Of a stretch of 33,530 nt of DNA, positions 9,293 to 33,530 are shown one piece after another. The stretch is taken from the NCBI GenBank assembly GCA_937902595.1, contig CALELH010000591.1, positions 1-33,530 of the forward strand. Reading direction: 5' to 3'. The notes under the pieces were generated by a model, which worked only from the letters and a program-made list of their open reading frames with translations, had not been told where the DNA came from and searched no databases. Position numbers and translations under genes: made by a program. Numbering within the stretch: the first letter of the stretch is position 1; each line of letters starts with the position of its first letter. Source of the stretch: an uncultured Myxococcales bacterium (GTDB lineage Bacteria > Myxococcota_A > Bradymonadia > UBA7976 > UBA1532).

Positions 9293-10093
9293 ATGGCTCG
9301 CTTTACAATTCTGATCGCACTCCTCGCTCTCGGTTTGACCGCGTGTGGCAAGAAGGAGGCTCCTGCGCCCAAGGCTCCGGAGAAGAAGGTAGAGAAGACA
9401 GCGGATAAGACAGCCAAGAATACCGCGCCTAAGGAGGCCGCTAAGGTAGCTCCGAAGGCCGCGAAGTCAGACGGTATTCAGGGAAAGTGGACTCTCGACG
9501 TTGAAGGCATGAAGCAGTTCGATGAGTTCAAGAAGCTCCCACCAGAGCAGCAGAAGATGGCGCTCGCCATGGTCTCCAGCATGAAGATGGAGATCGAGTT
9601 CACTGCAGACAAGATTAAGATGAACGTGAACGTTATGGGTCAGGCCAAGTCTGAGGAGACTCCATACAAGATCTTGAAGCAGGAGGGTTCGGCGTACACC
9701 ATCGAGACCTCTAAGAAGACTCGAAATCCAGCAGCTGGCGCAGGCGCTGAGCCTGTAGAGACCACGGTTCAGCAGGTGCTCACCCTAAAGGGAGACCAGC
9801 TGATCATCAAGGAGGGTGCCAAGACCATCGCTCTTAAGCGCCTCGGCTCCGCAGGTACTCCAGCAGCAGCGGCACCAGCAGCAGCAGCAGCGCCCGCAGC
9901 GGCACCAGCGGCAGCACCGGCAGCGGCGCCCGCAGCGGCGCCTAAGCCAGGGGCCGCGACTAAGGCAGGTTGGCAGAAGGGCGCTAAGGCACCTGGCGCT
10001 GGCGCGACCAAGGCCGGCTGGCAGAAGGGCGCTAAGGCTCCTGGCGCTGGCGCGACCAAGGCTGGCTGGCAGAAGGGTGCCTCCGGTAAGTGA
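9293..10093 (+). CDS. Predicted lipoprotein with Ala/Pro-rich linker and C-terminal 16-aa tandem repeats
   Basis: Lipobox ALGLTAC. Body GKWTLDVEGMKQFDEFKKLPPEQQK...EFTADKIKMN matches 8661..9158. Tail APAAAPAAAPAAAPAAAPK followed by (ATKAGWQKGAKAPGAG)n. Confidence 0.8.
   Translation: MARFTILIALLALGLTACGKKEAPAPKAPEKKVEKTADKTAKNTAPKEAAKVAPKAAKSDGIQGKWTLDVEGMKQFDEFKKLPPEQQKMALAMVSSMKMEIEFTADKIKMNVNVMGQAKSEETPYKILKQEGSAYTIETSKKTRNPAAGAGAEPVETTVQQVLTLKGDQLIIKEGAKTIALKRLGSAGTPAAAAPAAAAAPAAAPAAAPAAAPAAAPKPGAATKAGWQKGAKAPGAGATKAGWQKGAKAPGAGATKAGWQKGASGK
9956..10090 (+). repeat. In-frame 48-bp tandem repeat, two full units plus a partial third
   Basis: Units start at 9956, 10004 and 10052 (GCGACYAAGGC...), each encoding ATKAGWQKGAKAPGAG; the last ends ATKAGWQKGASGK. 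Confidence 0.95.
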
Positions 10094-10288: not shown

Positions 10289-12037
10289 CTATCGACGTCG
10301 GCGTCCCAGACCGAGGACAGCCAAGGGCGTTAAGAGCCACCAGAGCGGGGCGCTTGAGCTTCCACCAACACTGGAACAGCCTCCGCTGTCTTGACTCGTC
10401 TTCATGCCCACCATCCGATCCGATGGCGCCGGCACATTGGGCATCTCCGTGTCATCATCGTCCACATCGTCCATGTCGACTGGCATTGGGGTCATCGGCG
10501 TGATGCGACCTGGATATGGGAGATTGGGTTCACGAACTTCGACGAGGTCCATGGCGAGGCTCCCCGGATCAGCCGCAGCGACGCAGTGTGAGACCCACAT
10601 CCCTTGCTCATCCATTTTGGGGATCGCGACGTGGCCGGTCTCGCACCTGCAGGTCGGGAACCCGTTCAGCATTACGCACTCACCATTTTCTCCACAGAAG
10701 TCACCCGTCTCACAGATGTTGGGGAATTGAGGGCTGCCACCGCTTGAGTCACCATTCGTGAAGTTGAGTCGTACGTCTCCGCAGGCGACGACACCGCGGC
10801 CGTCGGGCGAGATGCCGGCCCGCGCTACGGTTCCTGGAGCGCAGGCACAACCAGCAGCGGCTCTTTGATCGTTGTCTGCAGCTCGAGCGCAGACACCACC
10901 TGAGCCGCAGGCCAAGAACTCACATGGATCCACTCCATCATTCCCTGCGCCTCCTCGATCGCATAGGTCTTCTTCACCTTCTCGGGCCGGGATGATGTGC
11001 ACATTGGAGACATCTCCTCCGTCGACAGTGCCGAAGATGGGATCGATGTCCATCTCAGCCGGACTTACGCGGCTGTACAGCCGTGTGATGTATGGCTTGC
11101 TCTCCAAGAGCGCCACGAGAGCGTCTCGAGCATCGAGGGCCTCCTGCCCGAAGCGCTCCGGCACCCTACTGTTGCGGACTGTCTCTGCGAGCGGTGCGCT
11201 CGGTGCGGCGAACTCGGTGACAAAGCCGTGGCCGCCATTGCTGTCAATCTTACGCGCGACAAGCGCCAGGTAATTGTCTTGCCAAGTGCGAGGATCGAAG
11301 ACGAGGGCCTCATCGGGGATGATGACGTCAGGCACATTCTGAGGACCGAAGCGCTGGTCGCCAAGAATCCAGATCTTTACGCCCATCTCTAGTTGGGCCG
11401 CGATGGACGTGAGCCGGAGTGGCACTGCGGGAGAAGCTGCGTCATAGGTCATCTTGATGGGCTCGATGGACTCGGTGTCTTCACCGGGAGCGAGCTTCAT
11501 TGCCAAAAACTTCATCCCCTCGGCTGTGTATAGAGCGATGAAAGGCTCCATCTCAGGGACGATGCGGTAGTCGTTGAGCCGTAGCCACTCGACAAGCTCT
11601 CGTGGGTCCTCGGATTGAATCGTGACCGTATCGAATGGGCCCACGCGCTCCTGCGCGAGGACATCCACACCATTCTCGTTACGAGCGGGGCCACCACCAC
11701 CTCCGCCAGCTCCGTCTGCCTGAGCGAAGAGGCAGTCATTCTCGAAGTTAAACTGCGGTTGAGTCGCGAGGTCGATGGCGTTGAAGGCGCCGCCGTGCCA
11801 AGTGTCGAGCTCTGGAACAGAGGGGACTGGAACGATCCAGGCGAAGCCCTCCGGGTCGCCTTGGTAGGCGATCTCTACGTAACTCGTCACGGTGTCAGCA
11901 TCTTCTTGCACAAAGATGATGCGCTCGGCCTGCTGATCTACAGGGCTGGCGTTACAGAAGAAACCTCCGCAAGCCATGGCCAGATTTGGCATGAGCGAGA
12001 TGACTCCGAGGATGAAAGAGACTAGACCGATACGCAT
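10289..12037 (-). CDS. DUF2330-type secreted protein with EGF-like Cys-rich region and MYXO-CTERM-like tail
   Basis: Signal peptide then MACGGFFCNASPVDQQAERIIFVQE...GFAWIVPVPSVPE. Cys-rich segments CEFLACGSGGVC...CACAPG and CETGDFCGENGECVMLNGFPTCRCETG. C-terminus GGCSSVGGSSSAPLWWLLTPLAVLGLGRRRR. Confidence 0.85.
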   Translation of the reverse strand: MRIGLVSFILGVISLMPNLAMACGGFFCNASPVDQQAERIIFVQEDADTVTSYVEIAYQGDPEGFAWIVPVPSVPELDTWHGGAFNAIDLATQPQFNFENDCLFAQADGAGGGGGGPARNENGVDVLAQERVGPFDTVTIQSEDPRELVEWLRLNDYRIVPEMEPFIALYTAEGMKFLAMKLAPGEDTESIEPIKMTYDAASPAVPLRLTSIAAQLEMGVKIWILGDQRFGPQNVPDVIIPDEALVFDPRTWQDNYLALVARKIDSNGGHGFVTEFAAPSAPLAETVRNSRVPERFGQEALDARDALVALLESKPYITRLYSRVSPAEMDIDPIFGTVDGGDVSNVHIIPAREGEEDLCDRGGAGNDGVDPCEFLACGSGGVCARAADNDQRAAAGCACAPGTVARAGISPDGRGVVACGDVRLNFTNGDSSGGSPQFPNICETGDFCGENGECVMLNGFPTCRCETGHVAIPKMDEQGMWVSHCVAAADPGSLAMDLVEVREPNLPYPGRITPMTPMPVDMDDVDDDDTEMPNVPAPSDRMVGMKTSQDSGGCSSVGGSSSAPLWWLLTPLAVLGLGRRRR

Positions 12038-12241: not shown

Positions 12242-13906
12242 ATGCGTTTACTCTTGGGAGCTTTGCTCTTGTTATCACCCCAGGTGGGTATGGCTTGTGG
12301 CGGATTGTTTTGTGACAACACGACGCCCGTGAACCAGTCGGCTGAGCGTATTCTATTTGCGCCGACCGAGGATGGGATGGATATGCACGTCCGCATTACC
12401 TACGCGGGCCCGCCATCGAACTTCGGGTGGCTCTTACCGGTACCACGTGATGTTGAGTATGGACTCTCTAGCGAGTCTCTATTCACCCAGCTTGACCAGA
12501 ACTTCGCCCCAGTGTTTGTACTTCGGACCGAGATAGATCCAGGGTGTAGTGACCTACTGCGTGCAGCCCCGAGCAATGAGTCCGCTGGTTTCAGTGACGC
12601 CGGAGCAGGTCAATCAGATCCGAATGAGGCGACTGTGCAGGTCCTCTCTCGAGAGGCGGTAGGGCCGTACGACCTCGTCGTGCTCTTGCCGGACAGCGTG
12701 GAGGCGTTACGGGAGTGGTTGACTGAGAATGAGTATCAGATCCCGGACACCGCGGACGCCACCCTGCAGCCTTATGTTGAGATGGAGGCGGCCTTTCTCG
12801 CGCTCAAGCTTTTGGCGGGCTCTGATGCGGGCGACGTTCAACCGATTCGCATGAGCTTCGGAGGTAGCACACCTGCGATTCCCATCGTGCCCACCTCGGT
12901 GGCGGCTGATCCCGACATGGGTATTCTGGTTCACCTGCTGGGCCAGTCCCGCGCCGTTCCAAACAACTACCGACATGTGAAGATCAATGAGGCTGCCCTG
13001 GACTGGAACAATAGAGGACAGAATTACGCGGACGTTGTGAGCCAAGCGGCCGATGAAGCGGGTGGTCAAGCCTTTGTCACTGACTTCGCTGGCGCCCATA
13101 ATGACCGACTCTTTCTCGGCACTTTTGAGGCCCAACAGCTCGAACGAGTCCGTACCATACAAGACCCTGCCGAGCTCTTGCAGTATGTGCTCTTCAGCGC
13201 AGGTCTGGGCTCGAATGACCAAGACCTTCAGCGCGTCGTACGTGCCGCGATTTCAACGCGTGGTGACCTCACGGCTGACGAGGTTCTTGGGTGTCCTCAG
13301 TGCTACTCGGATCGGGGGGATGGGGCAGAAGGTCAGGCTTTCGAGGTTGATGTCGAACTTCTCATCACATCCATTGAAGAGCAGATCAATGAGCCACGAG
13401 AGAGGATCGAATCCCTCTTCGGTGAGAACCCATACTTGACGAGACTCTACTCGACGATGAGCGCGCACGAGATGACGGTGGATCCGACCTTTGGATATAA
13501 TCGTGACCTTGAAGACAAGGCTAACCGACGGACCGCGATTCGCCGCGTTCGGTGCTTCATGGGCAGACCCGACTTTGACAACGCGATCATCGAGACTCCC
13601 AGTGGTCTTCGTGTCCGTGAACGGGATGGCGGCAATCCAAACGTCATCGTTCGTCAGGCAGGTGAGACCGTCCGTGGAGAGGGCGTCCCAGGCGCTTGGG
13701 TGATCGAAGAGCCGATGGCAGCAGGTCAGCCAGAGGTGCTCGAGGACAAGACAGAGATCATCGAGTCGATCTCAGGGATTAATGAGAACGCGGGGTGTGC
13801 ATGCGACGCCACGGGCACCAGCGGCACTGCGATGTTGTTTGTCTTTGGTCTACTCTTGGTGCCAGTCTTTAGGCGCCGTGAGCGTGGTGATGAGCTAGAA
13901 GGCTAG
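12242..13906 (+). CDS. DUF2330-type secreted protein with MYXO-CTERM-like tail
   Basis: MACGGLFCDNTTPVNQSAERILFAPTEDG...FGWLLPVPRDVE parallels the divergent paralog. C-terminus NAGCACDATGTSGTAMLFVFGLLLVPVFRRRERG (Cys, TM, Arg cluster). Confidence 0.85.
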   Translation: MRLLLGALLLLSPQVGMACGGLFCDNTTPVNQSAERILFAPTEDGMDMHVRITYAGPPSNFGWLLPVPRDVEYGLSSESLFTQLDQNFAPVFVLRTEIDPGCSDLLRAAPSNESAGFSDAGAGQSDPNEATVQVLSREAVGPYDLVVLLPDSVEALREWLTENEYQIPDTADATLQPYVEMEAAFLALKLLAGSDAGDVQPIRMSFGGSTPAIPIVPTSVAADPDMGILVHLLGQSRAVPNNYRHVKINEAALDWNNRGQNYADVVSQAADEAGGQAFVTDFAGAHNDRLFLGTFEAQQLERVRTIQDPAELLQYVLFSAGLGSNDQDLQRVVRAAISTRGDLTADEVLGCPQCYSDRGDGAEGQAFEVDVELLITSIEEQINEPRERIESLFGENPYLTRLYSTMSAHEMTVDPTFGYNRDLEDKANRRTAIRRVRCFMGRPDFDNAIIETPSGLRVRERDGGNPNVIVRQAGETVRGEGVPGAWVIEEPMAAGQPEVLEDKTEIIESISGINENAGCACDATGTSGTAMLFVFGLLLVPVFRRRERGDELEG

Positions 13907-23119: not shown

Positions 23120-24228
23120 CTCCATTACTCATCGATCAGGCCGACCAACTCGATCAGGTCTCAGCGGGTCTCGACGGAGCGAAGGTACTCTTCATCGACA
23201 CCGAGTTTGAGTCTCGGCGGGGTGGCACGGATCTCTGTCTCATCCAAGTGACCGATGGCGAATCCCTATATCTCATCGACGCCATCGCGATTCGTGACCT
23301 AGTGCCACTCGCGGACGTCATCGGTGACGCTGAAGTGACTTGGGTCACCCACGCGGGCCGCCAGGACGTCGACTTGATGATGAAAGCGCTGAAGCTCCGG
23401 TGTCGACCCAAGATCTATGACACTCAGGTCGCTTGGAGCTTGGTGAGCGCCGAACACCAGGTCTCCCTCGCATATCTCGTGGCGGTGCTTCTTGGTGTTC
23501 ACCGAGAGAAGGGGCACCAGACAGATAATTGGACCCGACGACCGCTCACGGACGCTCAGATTAGTTATGCTGCTGATGATGCTGAGGACCTAGTCGCTCT
23601 ATATGCAGCGCTCAATCAGCGCCTAGACAAACTTCAGCGGCGGGACTTGGTCGTGGAGGTGACCTCCGAGACCTTCAAGCCGCCTCCGGCTCGCTCCGAT
23701 CACATCAGCCTCTCTCGATATCGTAATCTCTGGCAGCTAAATGGCCCGCAACAGGCGGCGCTCTCGGCGCTCTTACGTTGGTATAATGCGCTTAGAAATC
23801 ATCGCGGCGCTCCGCACTACAAGACCCTCTTCTCCATCGCCGCTCGATTGCCCGAGGACCCTCGTTCCCTCGGTGACATCAAGGGAGTTAACCCTCGATT
23901 TGCGCATGGTGAACAGGGCGCCGCCATCATTGAGTTGATGGCTGAGGCCGCGGACGGCGCAGATGAGTTGGCCGACGCCAGTGGCCCGTCACCCTACGCG
24001 ACCTTCGACGAATACTTTCGAGAGGCGTGGCTCTCTTGCGCTCGCGCGGAGTTGAGCGCGGCGCTGTGCATCGCTCCCGAGGTGGCCTTTCCTCCATGGC
24101 TCATGAAGCGGCTTCGCGCGGCGGTCAAAGAGACCATAGAGCTCACGGACCTCGCCGGAGAGTTCGATGGTTGGCGTGGGTGCCTAAGTGATCCTTGGCG
24201 CAAATTCTGTGAAGATACGAACGCTTAG
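23116..24228 (+). CDS. rnd: Ribonuclease D-like 3'-5' exonuclease with HRDC-like domain
   Basis: DEDD exonuclease motifs FIDTEFESRRGGTDLCLIQV, WVTHAGRQDVDLM, ISYAADDAEDLVALY. ATGA overlap with hemB. Confidence 0.9.
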   Translation: MTPLLIDQADQLDQVSAGLDGAKVLFIDTEFESRRGGTDLCLIQVTDGESLYLIDAIAIRDLVPLADVIGDAEVTWVTHAGRQDVDLMMKALKLRCRPKIYDTQVAWSLVSAEHQVSLAYLVAVLLGVHREKGHQTDNWTRRPLTDAQISYAADDAEDLVALYAALNQRLDKLQRRDLVVEVTSETFKPPPARSDHISLSRYRNLWQLNGPQQAALSALLRWYNALRNHRGAPHYKTLFSIAARLPEDPRSLGDIKGVNPRFAHGEQGAAIIELMAEAADGADELADASGPSPYATFDEYFREAWLSCARAELSAALCIAPEVAFPPWLMKRLRAAVKETIELTDLAGEFDGWRGCLSDPWRKFCEDTNA

Positions 24229-24250
24229 AACACCTCCAGCGGGAGTCCTG

Positions 24251-25126
24251 ATGCGAATAACGCTGCTATTCTTGTTGATGAGCGTCTCTACGAGCGCGTT
24301 GGCAGACGCGAACACGTTTTGGAGGCATTGGAGTGACGGCCAGGCCGAGGTGAGCGGGTACACGCTCAGCCAACCTCGGTATGGCGAGACTCGGGTTGGA
24401 ACAGCCATCCTTATCTTTGTGACAGAGCCCTTCTCCCGAAGCCGGGCCGTCAAGGTCGATCGCTATAACCCAAAGGATCCAGACCAGTTTACCGCGTTCA
24501 AATTGAATCATCTGCAGCGTTTTCGGACGGGGGTCTACGATTACTCAGTGATGACGAGTGTGTTTACCGACCCATCGAAGAGCTTTGGACCGGTCAAGCA
24601 GGTCTTTTCGAGCCAGGAGTGGTGTGGTCAGGTCTATGAGGAAACCCTCTGGTCGGAGGGGAAGGCCTCTGTCAGAGTCGACAGCTATTTCGAGGGAGAG
24701 TCTCGAACAGGCGTGATGGTTGGCCGAGCGGCCAGTGAAGACGCGCTGTGGATACAGGCGCGAGGTCTCATGGCGAGTGGGCCGGGCTCGAGTCTGATGC
24801 GCGGCCCCATGCTTGGTCGAGGGCAGATTCGACGATTGAGGCATCAGGAGATAGGGACCTTCAAACCCCAGTTGGCCTGGAGTGAACCCAGGTCGTTAAC
24901 GGTGCCTGCGGGGACCTATCGAATCCGAGAGTTAGCTTGGGTTCGCGGAGATAAGAGTCGTTGTCGTCTACACGTAGAGATCGCAGCGCCTCATCGGGTC
25001 ATTGGCTGGTCTTGTGACGATGGAGAGAGCGCCCAGCTGACAGGGTCATTGAGGATGCCCTATTGGAATCAGGTGAGGTCGATCGACGAGCGATTGCTCA
25101 AGGCGCTGGGGTTGCCTGGATCGTAA
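24251..25126 (+). CDS. Secreted protein of unknown function
   Basis: Start at 24251 gives signal peptide MRITLLFLLMSVSTSALADANTFWRHWSDGQAEVSGY. Provided ORF starts at 24188 inside the upstream gene. Confidence 0.65.
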   Translation: MRITLLFLLMSVSTSALADANTFWRHWSDGQAEVSGYTLSQPRYGETRVGTAILIFVTEPFSRSRAVKVDRYNPKDPDQFTAFKLNHLQRFRTGVYDYSVMTSVFTDPSKSFGPVKQVFSSQEWCGQVYEETLWSEGKASVRVDSYFEGESRTGVMVGRAASEDALWIQARGLMASGPGSSLMRGPMLGRGQIRRLRHQEIGTFKPQLAWSEPRSLTVPAGTYRIRELAWVRGDKSRCRLHVEIAAPHRVIGWSCDDGESAQLTGSLRMPYWNQVRSIDERLLKALGLPGS

Positions 25127-26027
25127 CCCGAATGATCGGCGCCTTGGGTCGCATGCGACCTGGCTGCTCTTCATAAATTTGGATCTGCTTCTTGGGCTGT
25201 CTCCAGACCTTGCCCGCCTCTGTCTCCTCTGCCTTGACCTGCCACCCCTGCTGGATCATCTCTTCCACTCGAGCGAGCATCCCCGGGTTACCTGTCGTCA
25301 TAACCTTGAACGCGACGGAGTCAATCTTGTCTTCCGTGACGTTGAAACGAACGGAGAGAGGACGAGTTCGATACTGTAGTGGCGGTAGCCAGGCGACAAA
25401 CCCAGGCCTGGAGCGTCGCTTCATCCTACGGAGCAAACTCTTCGCCGCGTCAGCCTGTGTCTTCCCGATCCAGTCTGCTAAGGCCGTTCGAGCTGGGTCG
25501 CCTCCGGGTCTGAGCGCGTCGCTTAGCTTAAAATATGGCCAGAAGTTGAGTTGAACTCCATCTTGACGTTCTTCCAAAATCGCCTGAGTTTGGGTCTTCT
25601 GGTCGAACCAAAAGTACGCTTTCCTCTGACCGTCAACCTGACCTTCCGTCGGGTCTCCCCACTTAGACGCGAGGGCCTCCTTCGCGCCTTTTGGTAGCGT
25701 GATTTTAATGGACCTCAGGGTCTGGGTGTCAGCGTGGCGAACGATCCTAAAGCGTGCGTCGGGAGCACCCATGATCGTAGACGACTTCTCGCCCAAGAGA
25801 TTCTTCGGGAGCGTCTCTAATGTTCCTGCGCTTGAGGTGAAGTCAGCGCCCTTAAGGATGTTGGGGAGGGATGCAGGCTGAGAGGTGAACTGGTTCAGCC
25901 AGCCGGCATCTTCAATCCGTTGGGTGGGCTTTGCTAGAATCGATGGTGGTGGGTCATCGGACTCAGACTTAGTACAGCCGACCGCTAGGGTTGTGGCGAG
26001 GAGCACGAGAGGAGCGATGCGGAACAC
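25098..26027 (-). CDS. Predicted lipoprotein of unknown function
   Basis: Lipobox MFRIAPLVLLATTLAVGCTKS. 7-bp gap to the upstream PLD gene; 3' end overlaps the convergent gene by 29 bp. Confidence 0.7.
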   Translation of the reverse strand: MFRIAPLVLLATTLAVGCTKSESDDPPPSILAKPTQRIEDAGWLNQFTSQPASLPNILKGADFTSSAGTLETLPKNLLGEKSSTIMGAPDARFRIVRHADTQTLRSIKITLPKGAKEALASKWGDPTEGQVDGQRKAYFWFDQKTQTQAILEERQDGVQLNFWPYFKLSDALRPGGDPARTALADWIGKTQADAAKSLLRRMKRRSRPGFVAWLPPLQYRTRPLSVRFNVTEDKIDSVAFKVMTTGNPGMLARVEEMIQQGWQVKAEETEAGKVWRQPKKQIQIYEEQPGRMRPKAPIIRVTIQATPAP

Positions 26028-26034
26028 AGACTCG

Positions 26035-28029
26035 TTACTCCTGGCTGCTCGGTGCGCGCCAGTTCGGATCTTCTCTAGGGAACTGCTCGCCCCCTGAATT
26101 CGGTTGACCGGGTGTAGCGACGATGTGCTGCTGCCGTTCAGGTCTCACTTGACTGAGCGCCTGTGCCTTGACCTCCTCACTCACCCCAGAGAGGTCGCAG
26201 CCCGCCCATGACGCCGGATCGGCTCCGTTGCGGATCTTCGTGCACGATGAGTCATCACCGCAGTCAAAGTGGACGCGCTCCATGGAGTAGACCACCTGGT
26301 CTCTCGGGTCCTCTCCTGATCCGACCGCTCGTCTACCGCCGGCGAAGGGCGCCGCCCCATTACCAGCGACGTCAACCTCACGGCCTCTCGGGTCCAAGAG
26401 TCGTAGCTTAAACCGAGCGTTGTGCAGATTGGGCCGCAGAAACCGAGCATCATTGGCGGTGTTCATGACGAAGTCTGCGCCGACGTAGGCGCCTCCGCGC
26501 ATGTGTGGCCGCAGGTCGTCATATGCCTCAGTGTTGTGGTCTACGATGAGAAAGTGCTCATAAGGGCCGATGACTGTTCCCGGGTAAAGCCCAACCGCGA
26601 AGTCATCGTCGGTGGCGATGGTCCACATAGAGAGGTCGATCATGTATGGCGTGGTGTTAAAGAGCTCAATAAACTCATCGTTATTGACGAAATGGTCTGC
26701 GCGATCCGTGTCAGGGTTATCGGTCTCGGCGGGGTCGACGAGGCCGTTATATCCGTCCCACTGAATCTCATTGAAGACGACGGAGCCAGGCTTGATACCT
26801 GTCGCGCTGTCTGGCCGATCTCCCAGGTAGCGATTGCCGATTCGCTTCGCCATATTCCAGAGATAATCGAAGTAGTCCGCGTATTGGCCGCCTACGTTTT
26901 GTCCGGACAAGACGACGAGGACTTCGTCATTCGCGACGGTCGCGCTAGACGACCAATTGAAGGAGCCGGTCAGCACTACGGGGGCGTCTGTATTTCCATC
27001 AATGACGAGGGTCTTCGCGTGTTGGCGGCCACCCCCGGCTTGGTAGTCGCCGGGCTGACGGCTGTTGTCATTACCGTCCATGCGCACGGGCACACCAAAG
27101 GCGAGTAGGCGGTAGACCTCATGGTATGGGCCGTTGGAGTGAAGCTGGGACCGATCGATCACGCCGCGAACATATCGGGGGCGGAACGGAGTCTCACAGG
27201 TCACTTGAAGACATTGATCGTCCGTCACATCACCCCGGCCAGCAGGGTCACAGCACGCGTTGTAGCGCTGGAACTCTCTGTGCTTGGAGATGAAGAGAGA
27301 GCCGAGTTGGTCCTTTGTAAAAGCGAAGATAAAGAACTCGATGCTCTCCTTCGCGTTCTCAACGGCCTCAAGAATCCGACCCATTGCGTCCTCTTGAGGG
27401 GAAAAGTAGACCTCGACGCCCGTTTCTCCGACGACGTAGCTATTCCCGTTTTCTTGGTTTCGCTTAGCGAAGCCAAAACGCCCCGAGAACATCTGGTCAA
27501 ATTCGGCCTTAAAGTCTGCCGCGACCTGACCAGAGTCGATAAACACCCAATTGTTATCGTTGCGCTTAAAGCCCGTCGTCGTGATGTTTCCGGTACCGGT
27601 GATGATGAACCGACTGTCGATGATGAAGAACTTGTCGTGCATGATGTGGTTTTGGTTGCCCACCTGAGTTGGAACGTTCAGTCGGTCCATCTCCAGGTAG
27701 CCGCGCACAGTCCCGAATGCGTGTCGAGAGTTACCAACGAAGCGCATGTGTACGCCGCGCTCATATGCGCGGACGAGGGCGTCCACGATGGACCGCCGGC
27801 TGAAGCCCATCACGGCGAAATCGATGGTGGCGTTAGCGCGATCGATCATCTGAACCACGACGTCATCGGCGTGAGGATTGATGCCATTGACCTGGCGGCT
27901 CCCCGGATAGTTGAAGTGAACCTCAACCTTTGGGGTGTTCATGCCTGCGAGATCGTCTGAGTCTAGGCTCGTCTGGCAGCCCGTAAAGGCCATCGATAGC
28001 GCGAGCAGCGTGAAGAGTGAGCGGTTCAT
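26035..28029 (-). CDS. Phospholipase D-like lipoprotein with C-terminal lamin-tail-like domain
   Basis: Lipobox ALSMAFTGCQ. Two intact HKD motifs: HDKFFIIDSRFIITGTGN and HAKTLVIDGNTDAPVVLTGSFNWS. LTD-like VVFNEIQWDG...DEFIELFNTTPYMIDLSMWTI...GPYEHFLIVDH. Confidence 0.88.
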   Translation of the reverse strand: MNRSLFTLLALSMAFTGCQTSLDSDDLAGMNTPKVEVHFNYPGSRQVNGINPHADDVVVQMIDRANATIDFAVMGFSRRSIVDALVRAYERGVHMRFVGNSRHAFGTVRGYLEMDRLNVPTQVGNQNHIMHDKFFIIDSRFIITGTGNITTTGFKRNDNNWVFIDSGQVAADFKAEFDQMFSGRFGFAKRNQENGNSYVVGETGVEVYFSPQEDAMGRILEAVENAKESIEFFIFAFTKDQLGSLFISKHREFQRYNACCDPAGRGDVTDDQCLQVTCETPFRPRYVRGVIDRSQLHSNGPYHEVYRLLAFGVPVRMDGNDNSRQPGDYQAGGGRQHAKTLVIDGNTDAPVVLTGSFNWSSSATVANDEVLVVLSGQNVGGQYADYFDYLWNMAKRIGNRYLGDRPDSATGIKPGSVVFNEIQWDGYNGLVDPAETDNPDTDRADHFVNNDEFIELFNTTPYMIDLSMWTIATDDDFAVGLYPGTVIGPYEHFLIVDHNTEAYDDLRPHMRGGAYVGADFVMNTANDARFLRPNLHNARFKLRLLDPRGREVDVAGNGAAPFAGGRRAVGSGEDPRDQVVYSMERVHFDCGDDSSCTKIRNGADPASWAGCDLSGVSEEVKAQALSQVRPERQQHIVATPGQPNSGGEQFPREDPNWRAPSSQE

Positions 28030-29291
28030 GGTGACGTCCCTCTTTCAAATAGCGAGTCGAAGCTGTCGACCAGATACTGGTAATCAGAGTTAGGTTGAAC
28101 CAAGTTTTGCTGGACGACCCACATGTTCGCGTCAGTAAACCGGTCGGATTGCTGAGGGAGCGGGTCCTCTTCTCCAGCGTCTTCGAAATAGTAAGGGACG
28201 GCCTCAAACAGAGGCATAGACATCACCATCGCGCTGCCTGGATGCATGATCCGGGTGAGCGGACTGCGCTGCCCATCGATAATGACCCACGTGCCGTCGA
28301 TCTCGGGATTAATACGGTAGCCATCGAGCCCGTCGGTCGGCGTGGACGGGGGCTCGGCCAGCACAAGCTTCACGTCGAAGCCGGCGCCAGTCTTGTATCG
28401 TAGTGCCCGCGCAATCTCATCGTTCTTGAACTGCATCGATGCGATGTAGACCGACGATTTCGCGTTGTAGATCCGGTCAATGACCTCTTTAACCAGGCGC
28501 TCTTGTGGTCCGAAGTACACCTCGATCACGCTGTCCTCTGTCGGATAGGAGGTGCGGTTGTTCGTGTCGGCCGATACCGAGTCATCGTAGAAGGTCTGAC
28601 GGGTTGAAAAGACGCCGCCGTGAAGTTGATCGAACATGTCGGAGAAGTCTTTGGCTAGATCCTCAGACGCCGCGATAAATCCGGCCTGGGTCAACTCTTC
28701 ACCATCAGCCGGGAAGCCACCGGTCAAGTTTAGGATGCGGTGGCGATCTGCGATGATGAAGTTGTGGGTCATGAGGTTATCTTCGCCCGTGCGTATGACG
28801 AGCTCTCTCCCAAAGACGGCTTGCCAAGAGACCGGACCATCGCCATAGACCACATCGGCGTTGAGATCGTGCGCCTCTCTATTGGGCAGACCGACGATGG
28901 TTGAGTGAAAGCTGTTGCTGTCTTCAAGGCTTTGAAAGCCGTCTTGGTCTCTGCGGTCGACATCGCCGACCACTCGAACCTTTACCCCTCTCGATTTAGC
29001 CTCGATGAGAGCGTCGGCGATGCGTGTCGACCCGAAGTATTCGAGGGCGACGTCGAGGCTAGTCTCCGCGTTTACGATCAATTCGACGGCGCGCCGCTCG
29101 ATCTCCTCGAGTTGATAGGTCGAGGTGGGGCCGACGCCGAATGCATGAAAACGAGAGAAGTAATTTACGGTTGTATGTGTCGGCCACACTGAGCCTTCAA
29201 AGGGCGTCGGCGTCGCAGGGCCGTCTTGGCAACTCACAGATGCGATGATGAGAGTCAGCAGGACTCCTCGTTTGATGAACTCTGACATCAT
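28026..29291 (-). CDS. PLD-like lipoprotein with degenerate HKD motifs
   Basis: PLD-like fold segments TYQLEEIERRAVELIVNAETSLDVALEYFGSTRIADALIEAKSRGVKVRVVGD and VIEVYFGPQERLVKEVIDRIYNAKSSVYIASMQFKNDEIARAL. Catalytic positions altered. ATGA overlap with the downstream PLD gene. Confidence 0.75.
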   Translation of the reverse strand: MMSEFIKRGVLLTLIIASVSCQDGPATPTPFEGSVWPTHTTVNYFSRFHAFGVGPTSTYQLEEIERRAVELIVNAETSLDVALEYFGSTRIADALIEAKSRGVKVRVVGDVDRRDQDGFQSLEDSNSFHSTIVGLPNREAHDLNADVVYGDGPVSWQAVFGRELVIRTGEDNLMTHNFIIADRHRILNLTGGFPADGEELTQAGFIAASEDLAKDFSDMFDQLHGGVFSTRQTFYDDSVSADTNNRTSYPTEDSVIEVYFGPQERLVKEVIDRIYNAKSSVYIASMQFKNDEIARALRYKTGAGFDVKLVLAEPPSTPTDGLDGYRINPEIDGTWVIIDGQRSPLTRIMHPGSAMVMSMPLFEAVPYYFEDAGEEDPLPQQSDRFTDANMWVVQQNLVQPNSDYQYLVDSFDSLFERGTSP

Positions 29292-30085
29292 TCGAAGCTC
29301 CCTGAGGAGGTGTTTCCACTGTAATCCGGACTGTTGGGCATCCCCGGTGTCGCCATCGTTCGACCAGCGAAATCGGGATTCAAATACTGGCGTAGCTCTT
29401 GGTGCCAGCCAGCCCGCCGTCCCCGATCGAAGTCATTCAGACTGTAGGTGTGCCAGGCTGAGTCTCGGTTGCCTCGGTTGTTAAAGATCAACTGAATACG
29501 CTCCATAGAGCGCGCGGTGTGACCATCCCACGAACCGGCAAAGGGCAACTTACGATCGTCGCCGACATGGTCGATGAGTCGTTCGTCTAGATCCTGAAGA
29601 GTTAACTCGAATGGCCCCTTCGGGATGACGAGATCTTCTATGATGTAGTCGGCATTGGAGAAGGCGCCGTCAGCCTTAGCGGCGATCACCAAGTAATCAT
29701 TCGTCTCGACGGGTTGTCCGCTCTGCCGAGCTGGGATGACATAGGTTCTGCTCGCGCGCGCCGAGCGCCGGACGTGGTACAGACCCTCGGTGTGATATCC
29801 GGACTCGATGGTGAGCAGCCAGCCGGTCAGATGAACAGGACGAGGATGCTTGTTCTGCAGCTCTATGAAGACATCCTGCGGATCGTAGTGACCGTCACTG
29901 TCACGGACACTGCCTGCCCAGTGAATCTCGGTGATCGCGATGTTTCCGCGTTCGCCGTTACTTTGGTAATCGTCAGAACTCGTGCCCGCGCGATACCCGA
30001 CTGACTCATTGCGTCCGTCGGGTTCGACCTCTGGTTCACAGCCGAGGCAGAGAAGCCCGAGTATGGTGAGGACGGCCCAGCGCAT
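29288..30085 (-). CDS. Lamin-tail-domain (LTD)-like lipoprotein
   Basis: Lipobox LGLLCLGCEP. LTD-like ITEIHWAGSVRDSDGHYDPQDVFIELQNKHPRPVHLTGWLLTIESG...NDYLVIAAKADG. 4-nt overlap with the next gene. Confidence 0.7.
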   Translation of the reverse strand: MRWAVLTILGLLCLGCEPEVEPDGRNESVGYRAGTSSDDYQSNGERGNIAITEIHWAGSVRDSDGHYDPQDVFIELQNKHPRPVHLTGWLLTIESGYHTEGLYHVRRSARASRTYVIPARQSGQPVETNDYLVIAAKADGAFSNADYIIEDLVIPKGPFELTLQDLDERLIDHVGDDRKLPFAGSWDGHTARSMERIQLIFNNRGNRDSAWHTYSLNDFDRGRRAGWHQELRQYLNPDFAGRTMATPGMPNSPDYSGNTSSGSFE

Positions 30086-31713
30086 CAGAAGCTCACCTGC
30101 ATGCCGCCGCTCGCGGCCCAGAACATCTCCTGGCCCCCCTGAGCCGTCTGCTGATTACCTGCGACCCTATCTACGATGACCTCGTAGTACTCACCAGGTA
30201 AGAACACACCGCCGGCCACCACGAAGCTTAGAGCCTCGTTCATCGCGAGCTTAAGCTCAGCATCTATCGCTTGGCCAAGGCTCTTACCTAAGCGTTCCTG
30301 GGCAGCAAATTCAGCTCGAGTGTGGCCAAACGGCGGCTCGGGTAGGCTGTCTAGATTAGGGAGATCTAGGAACGTCGTCCCCGTATCCTTGAGGAAGTTC
30401 CAATAGTCCACAGACAAGGACACCTTTCCGTGGCTCAACCCAAGGTTGGCGTGGAGGAACTCAGTACCAGCGACGCGCGCTTGGTCATGAGGTGCATAGG
30501 TCACGCCGGACGCGTCTACATGACTCGCGGGTCGCCAAGCGAGGTAACGACCGACGCTACCACCACCGATGCGGGCGCCCATGAAGCCAACAAAACCTCG
30601 TTCGAACTCAAGGCCATCGCTCGCGTATTGAGCGCCATCGAAGTGATAGAAGTCCGCCCCAAAGGAGAGGGTCGTTTTTCCGCCGACCTTAACGTCCGTG
30701 ACCAAACCGCCACCAAAAGCATTCCCCTTAGTGTCGACGTTGCGATCCGTGGTGGGCTTACGGTCGATCCCCATGGACATCGCAAACTCTCCAAAGAGCT
30801 TGAGGTTTGTCGAACCGAAGTCACCGATGTATGCAGCTCGAACGCCGGCCATGTGCTGATAATCGCGGTCGCGATAATTTCCGAGGGCGCCGCCATAGGT
30901 AATGTCAGCGCCAGACTCTTCGATAGGGCCACCGCCGATGGTCGCATAGAAATAATAGGCTCTCGCCTCGATAGGTAGGGACGGCTGCGCTGCGTTATCC
31001 AGCTCGTACACGAGCCCTGTGCGCAGAGTGTTTGTCTCTCCTCTGAGGTTATATGTGGTCTGTCGCCCGTCACGATAGAATCGGTAGCCCGTCTCGGGGA
31101 GGCTGTTGCCACCGAAGAAGTCGACGCCGAGTAGCCGGAGTCTACCGGCTCCCTTGAAGTCAGCGGTCGCGGTCAGGGCGTCTAAGGTTCCCGACATCAT
31201 GTAGTCGCGGGGTACACCACCAATGGAGAATGGCTGACGCCCCATGCGGATGCTGATGTCTGCGGCTTTGCTCTTCAGCAAGCTGTAGCCAATATTCAGC
31301 TGATAGAAGCTCAGGTCGCCTGCGGACCCGGCGCTCCTACCCAGCATATCTTCACGCCAAATTGCGTTGAATCGCGTCTGGACCTGGAGATCGACGTCTG
31401 GGCGCACGTCATAGGAGAATGTAGCGAGGATGTCGCTGTGGCCAAAGGTGCGGCGATCATCGGAATCTATAATCGCGCGGTCTGAAGACTCATCCAGCGC
31501 GCGAAGGTCGCTATTGTCCGTGGCGTGGACACCTGTCGAGGCCTTCACCGAGACCTTAAGACCGGCGGGCCCTTCAGATTTAGTCGCTGATGACGATGCA
31601 GAGGGTCCAGCAGGTCCGGTGGGAGCCTCGGCGGCGGCGGTGTTTGCGAATCCTAGAGACAGGACGCATACGGCAGTAAGCCAACCAATTGGCTGGTGAA
31701 TCAAATTAGTCAT
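30085..31713 (-). CDS. Outer-membrane beta-barrel (porin-like) protein
   Basis: Signal peptide. Alternating aromatic/polar strands (DLQVQTRFNAIWRED, NIGYSLLKSKAADISIRMGRQPFSIGG). C-terminal GGMQVSF ends in Phe. Confidence 0.75.
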   Translation of the reverse strand: MTNLIHQPIGWLTAVCVLSLGFANTAAAEAPTGPAGPSASSSATKSEGPAGLKVSVKASTGVHATDNSDLRALDESSDRAIIDSDDRRTFGHSDILATFSYDVRPDVDLQVQTRFNAIWREDMLGRSAGSAGDLSFYQLNIGYSLLKSKAADISIRMGRQPFSIGGVPRDYMMSGTLDALTATADFKGAGRLRLLGVDFFGGNSLPETGYRFYRDGRQTTYNLRGETNTLRTGLVYELDNAAQPSLPIEARAYYFYATIGGGPIEESGADITYGGALGNYRDRDYQHMAGVRAAYIGDFGSTNLKLFGEFAMSMGIDRKPTTDRNVDTKGNAFGGGLVTDVKVGGKTTLSFGADFYHFDGAQYASDGLEFERGFVGFMGARIGGGSVGRYLAWRPASHVDASGVTYAPHDQARVAGTEFLHANLGLSHGKVSLSVDYWNFLKDTGTTFLDLPNLDSLPEPPFGHTRAEFAAQERLGKSLGQAIDAELKLAMNEALSFVVAGGVFLPGEYYEVIVDRVAGNQQTAQGGQEMFWAASGGMQVSF

Positions 31714-32803
31714 TCTGTAACACCTCGACCTGACCCAATCTCTGGATCCAGATCTTTAATCCATAACTATCGACGACTGGTCCTGTGACCGAAACTTTGG
31801 TCCGCGTATCGTAAGTCAGGCCTCTACGGACCATCTCCTGGTCTAGGCTTGTCTCCCAGCACATAGGCATCTTCGCGGGGTCAAACTCTGGGTTGGGGCC
31901 TCGGCAGAAGGAGGGGCAAATCCGGTCTTGGCAGACGGAGAACCCGCAACCACATTGGCCCATACAATTCGCCATGCAGATCCGAGACGACCGATCGGTC
32001 TCCTCACTGGGGGCCTGTGCGTTGTCCTGCTCTGCTGCATCGCTGTCATCCCAGAACTTCTTGTCTGCGATGATCATCGTGCTGAAGTTCTTATTTGACG
32101 GTGGCTGGGCCACGTACCCGATGATCCTCTTAGTTTGAGTGATGTCCGCGATCGAGAACGGAGTGGTCTGTCGTTCGTAATAAACGACTCTCTCACGGTC
32201 CGCGCCCGGGGGATCCATCAACTCCATATCTGCGCTGAGGACAGTGCGGGTCGTCGGGTCGATGTACGTATAGGTGACCGCGTTGATGCGCATCCGTACG
32301 CGGTCCCCGGCCGTGAATGGTGCGATGCGGCTGTCGCGTAGCACCATGATGCCACCAGTGTCGTCCTCGATGGTGAAGGTTCCGTAGTGCTTCTCATCCT
32401 GATCGCAGACCGGCACCTTTACGTATTGCCGTGGATGTAGAGTGATGACGCCTTCGATGGTGACCGGTAGCCCGGGCAGCACCTCGACACCCCCGCCAGG
32501 ACAGGGAAATCGGCCTTCTAGACTCGTGAATGTACGTGGATCACTGAAGCGCTCTGGCGCTCGTGCGGCGACCAGGTCGATGAGATCGCCTATCGCGCTG
32601 GCTGACGCGGTTGGGAGGCCGTACGGCGTGTCCCCTTGGCGTTCTTCGTAGGTTACAGGTTCCGCGACGGAGAGCTGTTCAGGTGCCTCTGGCCATCGCT
32701 GATCCTCGGGGATCGGTCCACGTGAGAGGTCGTCCGCGCAGCCAAAGGCGAACACGAGCAACAGGGATAGCGCCCTCTGAAAATACACCGAGTTCATCTC
32801 CAT
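31706..32803 (-). CDS. Predicted lipoprotein with OB-fold-like region and Cys-rich insert
   Basis: Lipobox LLLVFAFGCADD. YGTFTIEDDTGGIMVLRDSRIAPFTAGDRVRMRINAVTY resembles an OB-fold strand pattern. Cys-rich CMANCMGQCGCGFSVCQDRICPSFC. Confidence 0.6.
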   Translation of the reverse strand: MEMNSVYFQRALSLLLVFAFGCADDLSRGPIPEDQRWPEAPEQLSVAEPVTYEERQGDTPYGLPTASASAIGDLIDLVAARAPERFSDPRTFTSLEGRFPCPGGGVEVLPGLPVTIEGVITLHPRQYVKVPVCDQDEKHYGTFTIEDDTGGIMVLRDSRIAPFTAGDRVRMRINAVTYTYIDPTTRTVLSADMELMDPPGADRERVVYYERQTTPFSIADITQTKRIIGYVAQPPSNKNFSTMIIADKKFWDDSDAAEQDNAQAPSEETDRSSRICMANCMGQCGCGFSVCQDRICPSFCRGPNPEFDPAKMPMCWETSLDQEMVRRGLTYDTRTKVSVTGPVVDSYGLKIWIQRLGQVEVLQND

Positions 32804-32821
32804 TGCGTCTAGACGTTGGGA

Positions 32822-33526
32822 TCAGTTGTATACGCGTAACCAGCTCAGATTTGTAGTGTCGAACTGCAGATTTCCCCTATAGAAGCCTACGGGACCTACG
32901 TATGTGACACATTGACCGGTCCCTGCTTCCTCGTGTGCGGTCCGAAAGATCACGGGTTCTCCAAAGCCATAGTTAAGACGCCAACACTTGTTTCCGCTGC
33001 CGCAGCCCTCCGGCGTACCATCGAGTTGGCCCGTGATACGAACGATGCGATGACTGTCTGCCTGAGTGAGCTCGCGGTCAGGAGACCAGATATAGACCTC
33101 TGCGTTGGGCCCGGCGGCGAGCTCGGGGTGCGGGGGTTCGTTCGCGCCGTGCTCAACCCAATCGGTGCCGGCGCTGATCTGCGACTTTCTCTGATAGCGT
33201 CCGATGCGAGTCGCCCTAAATGACAGAACGGTGCCCACCTGGACGACGAAGTTTGGTGTGCCTCCCCGTGCACCAGCATCCAGATATACTTCGACCACAC
33301 CGTTTGCGTCTGCGACCCAGAAGCTGCGTTGGCTTTCAGGGACGTCCTCCTCGGTGAAGTCGCGGGTCGCTACGACCGTCGCTCTCGAGATGGGCATGTC
33401 TACGACGATGGGGTCGGGATCTCCATCGACGGTAGTCTCTGGTAACCGGCTAATCAGTAGCCGAATCCCCGCATCGTAATCGGCTGGATATGGCTCGAAC
33501 CTTGGAGTCCCTCCATTGGGGCGCAC
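32822..33526 (-). CDS. OB-fold-like secreted protein, N-terminus probably outside the window
   Basis: RSFWVADANGVVEVYLDAGARGG...VQVGTVLSFRATRIGRYQRKSQIS and HRIVRITGQLDG. No signal peptide within the ORF, so the start is probably upstream. 18 bp before the next gene. Confidence 0.5.
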   Translation of the reverse strand: MRPNGGTPRFEPYPADYDAGIRLLISRLPETTVDGDPDPIVVDMPISRATVVATRDFTEEDVPESQRSFWVADANGVVEVYLDAGARGGTPNFVVQVGTVLSFRATRIGRYQRKSQISAGTDWVEHGANEPPHPELAAGPNAEVYIWSPDRELTQADSHRIVRITGQLDGTPEGCGSGNKCWRLNYGFGEPVIFRTAHEEAGTGQCVTYVGPVGFYRGNLQFDTTNLSWLRVYN

Positions 33527-33530
33527 AGCG

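Follow-up and report, generated by a model that had tools for sequence, protein, structure and literature searches.

A conserved six-gene outer-membrane system of Myxococcota that may process extracellular nucleic acid

The window analysed here is one entire contig (G000:C591, 33,530 nucleotides) of the draft genome of an uncultured Myxococcales bacterium, and towards its end lie six consecutive minus-strand genes, G1 to G6, whose order is conserved in nine families of Myxococcota. The evidence supports their being five lipoproteins (G1, G2, G4, G5 and G6) and one outer-membrane beta-barrel (G3) made from one transcript. Judged from sequence, there is roughly an even chance that they form a system of the outer membrane for binding, cutting and letting in nucleic acid from outside the cell. 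Directly supported are the domains, the conservation of motifs, the lipobox signals, the gene order and the co-occurrence of the genes; we infer nucleic acid as the substrate, exposure at the surface, formation of a complex and passage through the barrel. The features concerned, including a seventh gene (G7) that lies outside the core, and with PLD for phospholipase D and LTD for lamin tail domain, are:

G1, 32822..33529 (-), C-terminal part of a tethered tandem-OB lipoprotein, the gene being cut by the contig end
G2, 31706..32803 (-), lipoprotein, probably OB-like (DUF5689-like), with a Cys-rich segment
G3, 30085..31713 (-), outer-membrane beta-barrel, probably distantly related to alginate-export (AlgE-like) barrels
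G4, 29288..30085 (-), LTD lipoprotein, paralogue of the G6 LTD
G5, 28026..29291 (-), pseudo-PLD lipoprotein, catalytically degenerate, paralogue of the PLD part of G6
G6, 26035..28029 (-), PLD-LTD lipoprotein and predicted catalytic unit (two HKD motifs ahead of an LTD)
First HKD motif of G6, 27586..27639 (-), H131xK133...D138...N148, of the Nuc/NucT type HxK(x)4D(x)6G[ST]xN
Second HKD motif of G6, 26956..27021 (-), H337xK339...D344...G355S356xN358
Lamin tail domain of G6, 26362..26718 (-), Pfam LTD, residues 438-556
G7, 25098..26027 (-), basic lipoprotein after G6, lineage-specific, outside the conserved core

Gene order and co-occurrence

An original prediction, made from the window alone, described seven packed minus-strand genes forming a single transcription unit. 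The seven open reading frames, all on the minus strand, and their gaps or overlaps of 18, -8, -1, -4, -4 and 7 bp are as it described, and the single unit is upheld by comparison with other genomes. Outside the window, 24 loci were compared (20 picked from a search with the barrel, and four within the family of the source genome), and all 24, from nine families of Myxococcota, keep the order G1-G2-G3-G4-G5-G6 on a single strand, G6 running beyond the contig at L045 and G1 lying at a contig end at L018. Overlaps of 1 or 4 bp are retained at many junctions across these loci, and the sole large operon break seen is a 2.7-kb insertion between G2 and G3 at L053, whose opposite strand encodes a MopE-type metal-binding/beta-helix protein (L053:7027-9173). 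A scan inside the operon found no promoter-like site between its genes, which on its own is no evidence.

Co-occurrence was followed across the phylum with three core genes (G2, the barrel G3 and G5) in 377 Myxococcota genomes. The barrel is found in 62 of them, G2 in 61, every one a barrel genome, and G5 (E < 1e-50) in 62, of which 61 are common to the barrel set, so that all three genes are present in 60 of the 63 genomes with any. The exceptions are all draft genomes, and assembly gaps may explain them; the hypergeometric log10 p of the co-occurrence is about -68 to -69, a value that ignores phylogeny. The divergence of the six core proteins is likewise correlated (r 0.75-0.93). Within the family of the source genome occurrence is patchy (5/13 genomes), the PLD-LTD protein and the barrel being found in the identical five genomes, and two further PLD matches (genomes G004 and G010) are orphan PLD-LTD genes.

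One member of the predicted operon has to be removed from it. The lipoprotein at 25098-26027 (G7) has a homologue, of 30% identity, only at the locus of the other genome of the genus, with no match at the remaining loci, and the core is set at six genes because G7 is confined to the genus. Its isoelectric point (pI) of 9.9 is also unlike that of the acidic core proteins. Clustering of the flanks of the loci gave no neighbour family recurring across most families besides the six genes. A plasmid search returned no barrel and just short, generic PLD matches, and there is therefore no sign of a plasmid-borne cassette.

The PLD-type protein and its paralogues in the operon

The original prediction singled out an active-looking PLD lipoprotein with an LTD-like domain, a degenerate PLD lipoprotein and an LTD lipoprotein, and each of the three was confirmed. 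In Pfam, G6 matches PLDc_2 at 2.1e-36, in two halves, and LTD at 5e-9, above the cut-off, whereas G5 matches PLDc_2 at 1.1e-13. The G4 copy of the window matches LTD at 1.7e-6 (28.8 bits, below the gathering score of 34.3), and the domain is matched by 25/25 G4 orthologues (best 4e-10); a search of the PDB by sequence with G4 gave a chance match only. The PLD superfamily (PF13091) is marked by two HxKxxxxD half-sites, which G6 possesses and G5 does not: neither HKD motif of G6 varies among the 24 aligned orthologues, from 24 genomes, while G5 has lost the first-motif lysine and the entire second HKD in 25/25 orthologues, its first His and Asp being retained in at least 90% of them. Since G5 and the PLD part of G6 are paralogous (profile match, E 5e-13), as are G4 and the LTD of G6 (E 5.5e-13), the operon carries its catalytic protein a second time, in split and degenerate form.

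What kind of PLD is G6? The Nuc/NucT enzymes have the signature HxK(x)4D(x)6GSxN (PMC5714352), which the first site of G6, HDKFFIIDSRFIITGTGN, fits with T replacing S. When a wide profile of G6 was searched against the PDB, its solved relatives were mostly PLD-family nucleases, the matches comprising Zucchini/mitoPLD, Nuc (1byr), NucT (6ehi), Serratia PLD, the PLD4/PLD3 exonucleases and a virion nicking-joining enzyme. Among NCBIfam models, NucT is matched at 2.9e-13 and cardiolipin synthase at 2.5e-6, both under the curated cut-offs: G6 scores no more than 49.8 bits with the NucT equivalog (PRK13912 models; cut-off 297) and 26.7 bits with bacterial cardiolipin synthase (TIGR04265; cut-off 290), and was assigned to neither. 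By its relatives and signature, membership of the PLD-type nuclease branch is favoured for G6.

Orphan PLD-LTD lipoproteins encoded in genomes of the family without the barrel (L020:485-3118 and L019:888-2795) resemble G6 in their two HKD motifs and C-terminal LTD-like repeats, and differ from it in being single genes, which share 30-36% identity with G6 in the part that matches best. They show a simpler, single-gene kind.

OB proteins, barrel and other genes of the window

Two secreted OB-like proteins were part of the original prediction; the OB fold is supported for one of them and suggested for the other, but free secretion is not, both being lipoproteins in relatives. None of the window proteins G1, G3 and G7 has a Pfam match, and PDB searches by sequence with G1, G2 and G3 found nothing. 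An AlphaFold2 model of G1 built with eight sequences (predicted local distance difference test, pLDDT, 84.7) has two five-strand units, and its Foldseek matches at E <= 0.001 are HIN-200 domains, POT1, Teb1, RPA and RADX, that is, nucleic-acid-binding multi-OB proteins or their relatives; SSB is among the matches of the model too. The model thus supports two OB folds in G1. In its orthologues, which are lipoproteins, the OB part follows a long low-complexity tether, (GE)n, (NN)n, (DT)n or Gly-rich.

The stretch at 32822-33529 holds only the C-terminal part of its gene: the window ends where a contig of the draft assembly ends, and G1 is for that reason incomplete in it. Contig C778 shares 18 bp with the end of the window and carries G1 on in frame, its N-terminal part (L064:1-1292, minus strand) comprising the lipobox, a further tandem-OB unit and a Cys-rich linker. 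The sister genome, from the same genus (L015), has the two-unit G1 as a single open reading frame of 644 aa. A second G1-like lipoprotein, with a long tether and tandem OB, lies divergent from the operon in the source genome and its family relatives, and is a further candidate component in this family. It was located at:

L064:1511-2608 (contig C778, source genome), second G1-like lipoprotein
L015:2975-3994, second G1-like lipoprotein
L016:18-1223, second G1-like lipoprotein
L017, about 182-1813, second G1-like lipoprotein

For G2, the evidence is suggestive of an OB-like protein. The window copy matches DUF5818 only below threshold, while among its orthologues, most of which have a lipobox, DUF5689 is matched by 13/24 (best 9.2e-5), DUF5818 by 16/24 (best 2.1e-5) and the OB-fold tRNA_anti-codon family once, weakly (0.069). 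Comparison of the sequence profiles of G1 and G2 gave no relation. At L042 (6112-9000), the G2 frame extends to 963 aa, with ~560 aa inserted after the OB-like part and ahead of the conserved C-terminal one.

The prediction of an outer-membrane barrel is supported. Of the G3 orthologues, 5/25 match the alginate-export family PF13372 Alginate_exp (best 8.9e-8), the window copy being without a match. An AlphaFold2 model of G3 from four sequences has about 18 strands but low confidence (pLDDT 49), and was set aside for fold comparison. Grounds on which the original prediction would have had to be abandoned, namely scattered genes or wrong folds, were looked for as far as possible, and it is not refuted: gene order at the 24 loci, co-occurrence, and the support for PLD, LTD and OB domains all agree with it.

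Elsewhere in the window, the gene at 24188-25126 (+) converges on the operon, its 3' end overlapping that of G7 by 29 bp; it encodes a basic secreted protein (pI 9.8) and adjoins HemB and RNase D, likewise in the sister genome. Two divergent genes, 10289-12037 (-) and 12242-13906 (+), encode a pair of secreted proteins, both acidic, that start with a CGGFFC/CGGLFC-type N-terminus and end in a MYXO-CTERM-like tail; by eye they look like paralogues. The lipoprotein encoded at 9293-10093 (+) has stretches rich in Ala and Pro and, at its C-terminus, a repeated KAGWQKGAKAPGAGAT unit.

Proposed mechanism, competing explanations and known systems

In the proposed mechanism, G1, with its tandem OB folds and long flexible tether, would act with G2 to capture a nucleic-acid strand, and the LTDs of G4 and G6 would hold the substrate or partners. 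G6, whose single chain contains both HKD half-sites, would then cleave phosphodiester bonds via a covalent phosphohistidine intermediate and without metal, covalent phosphohistidine and metal-independent cleavage being established PLD chemistry. The pseudo-PLD G5 would bind the substrate or scaffold G6, and the AlgE-like barrel G3 would pass anionic fragments over the outer membrane (AlgE transports an anionic polymer). The benefit would be salvage of phosphorus, nitrogen or nucleosides from DNA or RNA, for example from lysed prey or biofilm.

Several points weigh against this mechanism. The barrel showed no TonB-dependent plug, and active uptake is therefore not implied. The Foldseek template modelling (TM) scores for G1 are modest, mostly 0.2-0.47, and so, while its fold is supported, nucleic acid is only suggested as its ligand by the model; OB folds have sugars and proteins among their ligands too, and the OB structures of the PDB are skewed to nucleic-acid binders. 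The core proteins are acidic (mean pI 4.1-4.7), whereas the grooves of NucT and Nuc are electropositive (PMC5714352). Acidity is nevertheless a weak argument against DNA binding, since several cytosolic proteins of the window are acidic too; some of the G1 charge sits in the tethers, and the first PLD half of the window G6 has a net charge of +3 (the second -7). The function of PLD proteins is, moreover, hard to predict.

Could the substrate be another phosphodiester-linked polymer? According to this explanation, which we consider unlikely, the system would cleave or remodel a phosphoglycan capsule, a teichoic-type polymer, a prey envelope or the cell's own matrix, with oligosaccharide bound by the OB proteins while the polymer, or fragments of it, is moved by the AlgE-like barrel. 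The relatives of G3 are exopolysaccharide exporters, polysaccharide binding has also been predicted for OB folds and LTDs (PMC12419801), and the OB proteins are acidic; against this, G6 finds nucleases as its relatives in the PDB and G1 finds tandem OBs that bind nucleic acid, and no further gene family recurs beside the operon.

Lipid remodelling of the outer membrane, in which G6 would be a surface phospholipid-active PLD (cardiolipin synthase or phospholipase) with the barrel and lipoproteins placing it or supplying lipid, is rather unlikely on the evidence as a whole. ClsO of Acinetobacter is a surface-exposed lipoprotein with two HKD motifs, a widespread cardiolipin synthase (PMC12846801), and this makes lipid synthesis the strongest rival in principle, because a two-HKD outer-membrane lipoprotein like G6 can be a cardiolipin synthase, which counts against a nucleic-acid substrate. 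The weak match of G6 to the bacterial cardiolipin synthase model and the reach of its profile to Serratia phospholipase D point the same way. However, the profile ranks nucleases far over lipases, the NucT model is the better matched by G6, and neither the OB proteins nor the LTDs have an obvious part in lipid synthesis. ClsO, most similar to ClsC (PMC12846801), acts as a single gene with no LTD or OB partners, and G6 is nearer the nucleases.

Natural transformation, with the system binding and nicking incoming DNA for the type IV pilus/ComEC route, is very improbable. NucT, the closest named nuclease family, has been implicated in transformation and purine salvage in H. pylori (PMC5714352), and ComEC-like genes occur in 343/377 genomes of the phylum; being near-ubiquitous in carriers and non-carriers alike they are uninformative, no neighbour family is recurrent, and the patchy presence within the family suits an accessory trait. 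Least probable is an assembly for surface or secretion purposes, with structural or adhesive PLD proteins and little catalysis, for example in the export of lipoproteins or matrix through the barrel: the pseudo-PLD G5 found in every genome, the adhesin-like long tether of G1 and the export type of the barrel would suit it, but the strict invariance of both G6 HKD sites argues for catalysis.

Returning to nucleic-acid processing, how does the operon compare with known nucleases? In ExeM a single chain holds the nuclease together with an OB-like part, which is essential, and an LTD, which helps (PMC6085458). The ExeM/NucH family (NF033681; Shewanella ExeM, Vibrio Xds) shares with the operon the combination of LTD, OB-like part and phosphodiesterase acting outside the cytoplasm, but places them in one polypeptide with a metal-dependent EEP nuclease, whereas the operon has separate lipoproteins, a PLD-type enzyme and a barrel. 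The idea that ExeM modules are here split over several genes is supported; with these roles divided among different proteins and a predicted nuclease of the PLD type, the operon may, by analogy, work like ExeM without being a member of its family. Membership was rejected, no operon gene having an EEP domain and the source genome no match to the family. NF033681 is matched in 13/377 genomes and 0/62 barrel genomes, but with an expected overlap of only about 2 the difference is not significant, and a complementary distribution of the two is unsupported. Nuc, NucT, Zucchini/PLD6 and PLD3/PLD4, the best PDB profile relatives, have the HxKxxxxD...G[ST]xN site in common with G6; of these, Nuc, NucT and Zucchini carry a single HKD and form dimers, in contrast to the two HKDs per chain, LTD, lipid anchor and pseudo-PLD partner of G6.

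The Sus-type systems of Bacteroidota combine lipoprotein binders, a lipoprotein enzyme and an outer-membrane channel in each operon. The logic of the present operon is alike (binders, lipoprotein enzyme, channel), but it is without a SusC/TonB-dependent transporter or SusD, its barrel is AlgE-like and its enzyme is a PLD rather than a glycosidase; no operon gene has a SusC TonB-dependent barrel or SusD Pfam match, and membership was set aside. A more specific proposal, which we advance tentatively, is that the operon is an undescribed nucleic-acid foraging machine, counterpart of a polysaccharide-utilisation system, with tethered tandem-OB capture, a PLD nuclease with its pseudo-PLD, LTD scaffolds and a dedicated channel, that has spread through Myxococcota as one cassette. 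No description of the operon was found in the literature searched, and apart from the PLD and LTD parts nothing of the cassette has a name in Pfam or NCBIfam. Kept whole in roughly one in six of the Myxococcota genomes sampled, it is a strong candidate for a surface system of a new kind. If its substrate is nucleic acid, it would represent a multi-component outer-membrane route to eat DNA or RNA, with a bearing on prey-lysing predators and on phosphorus cycling.

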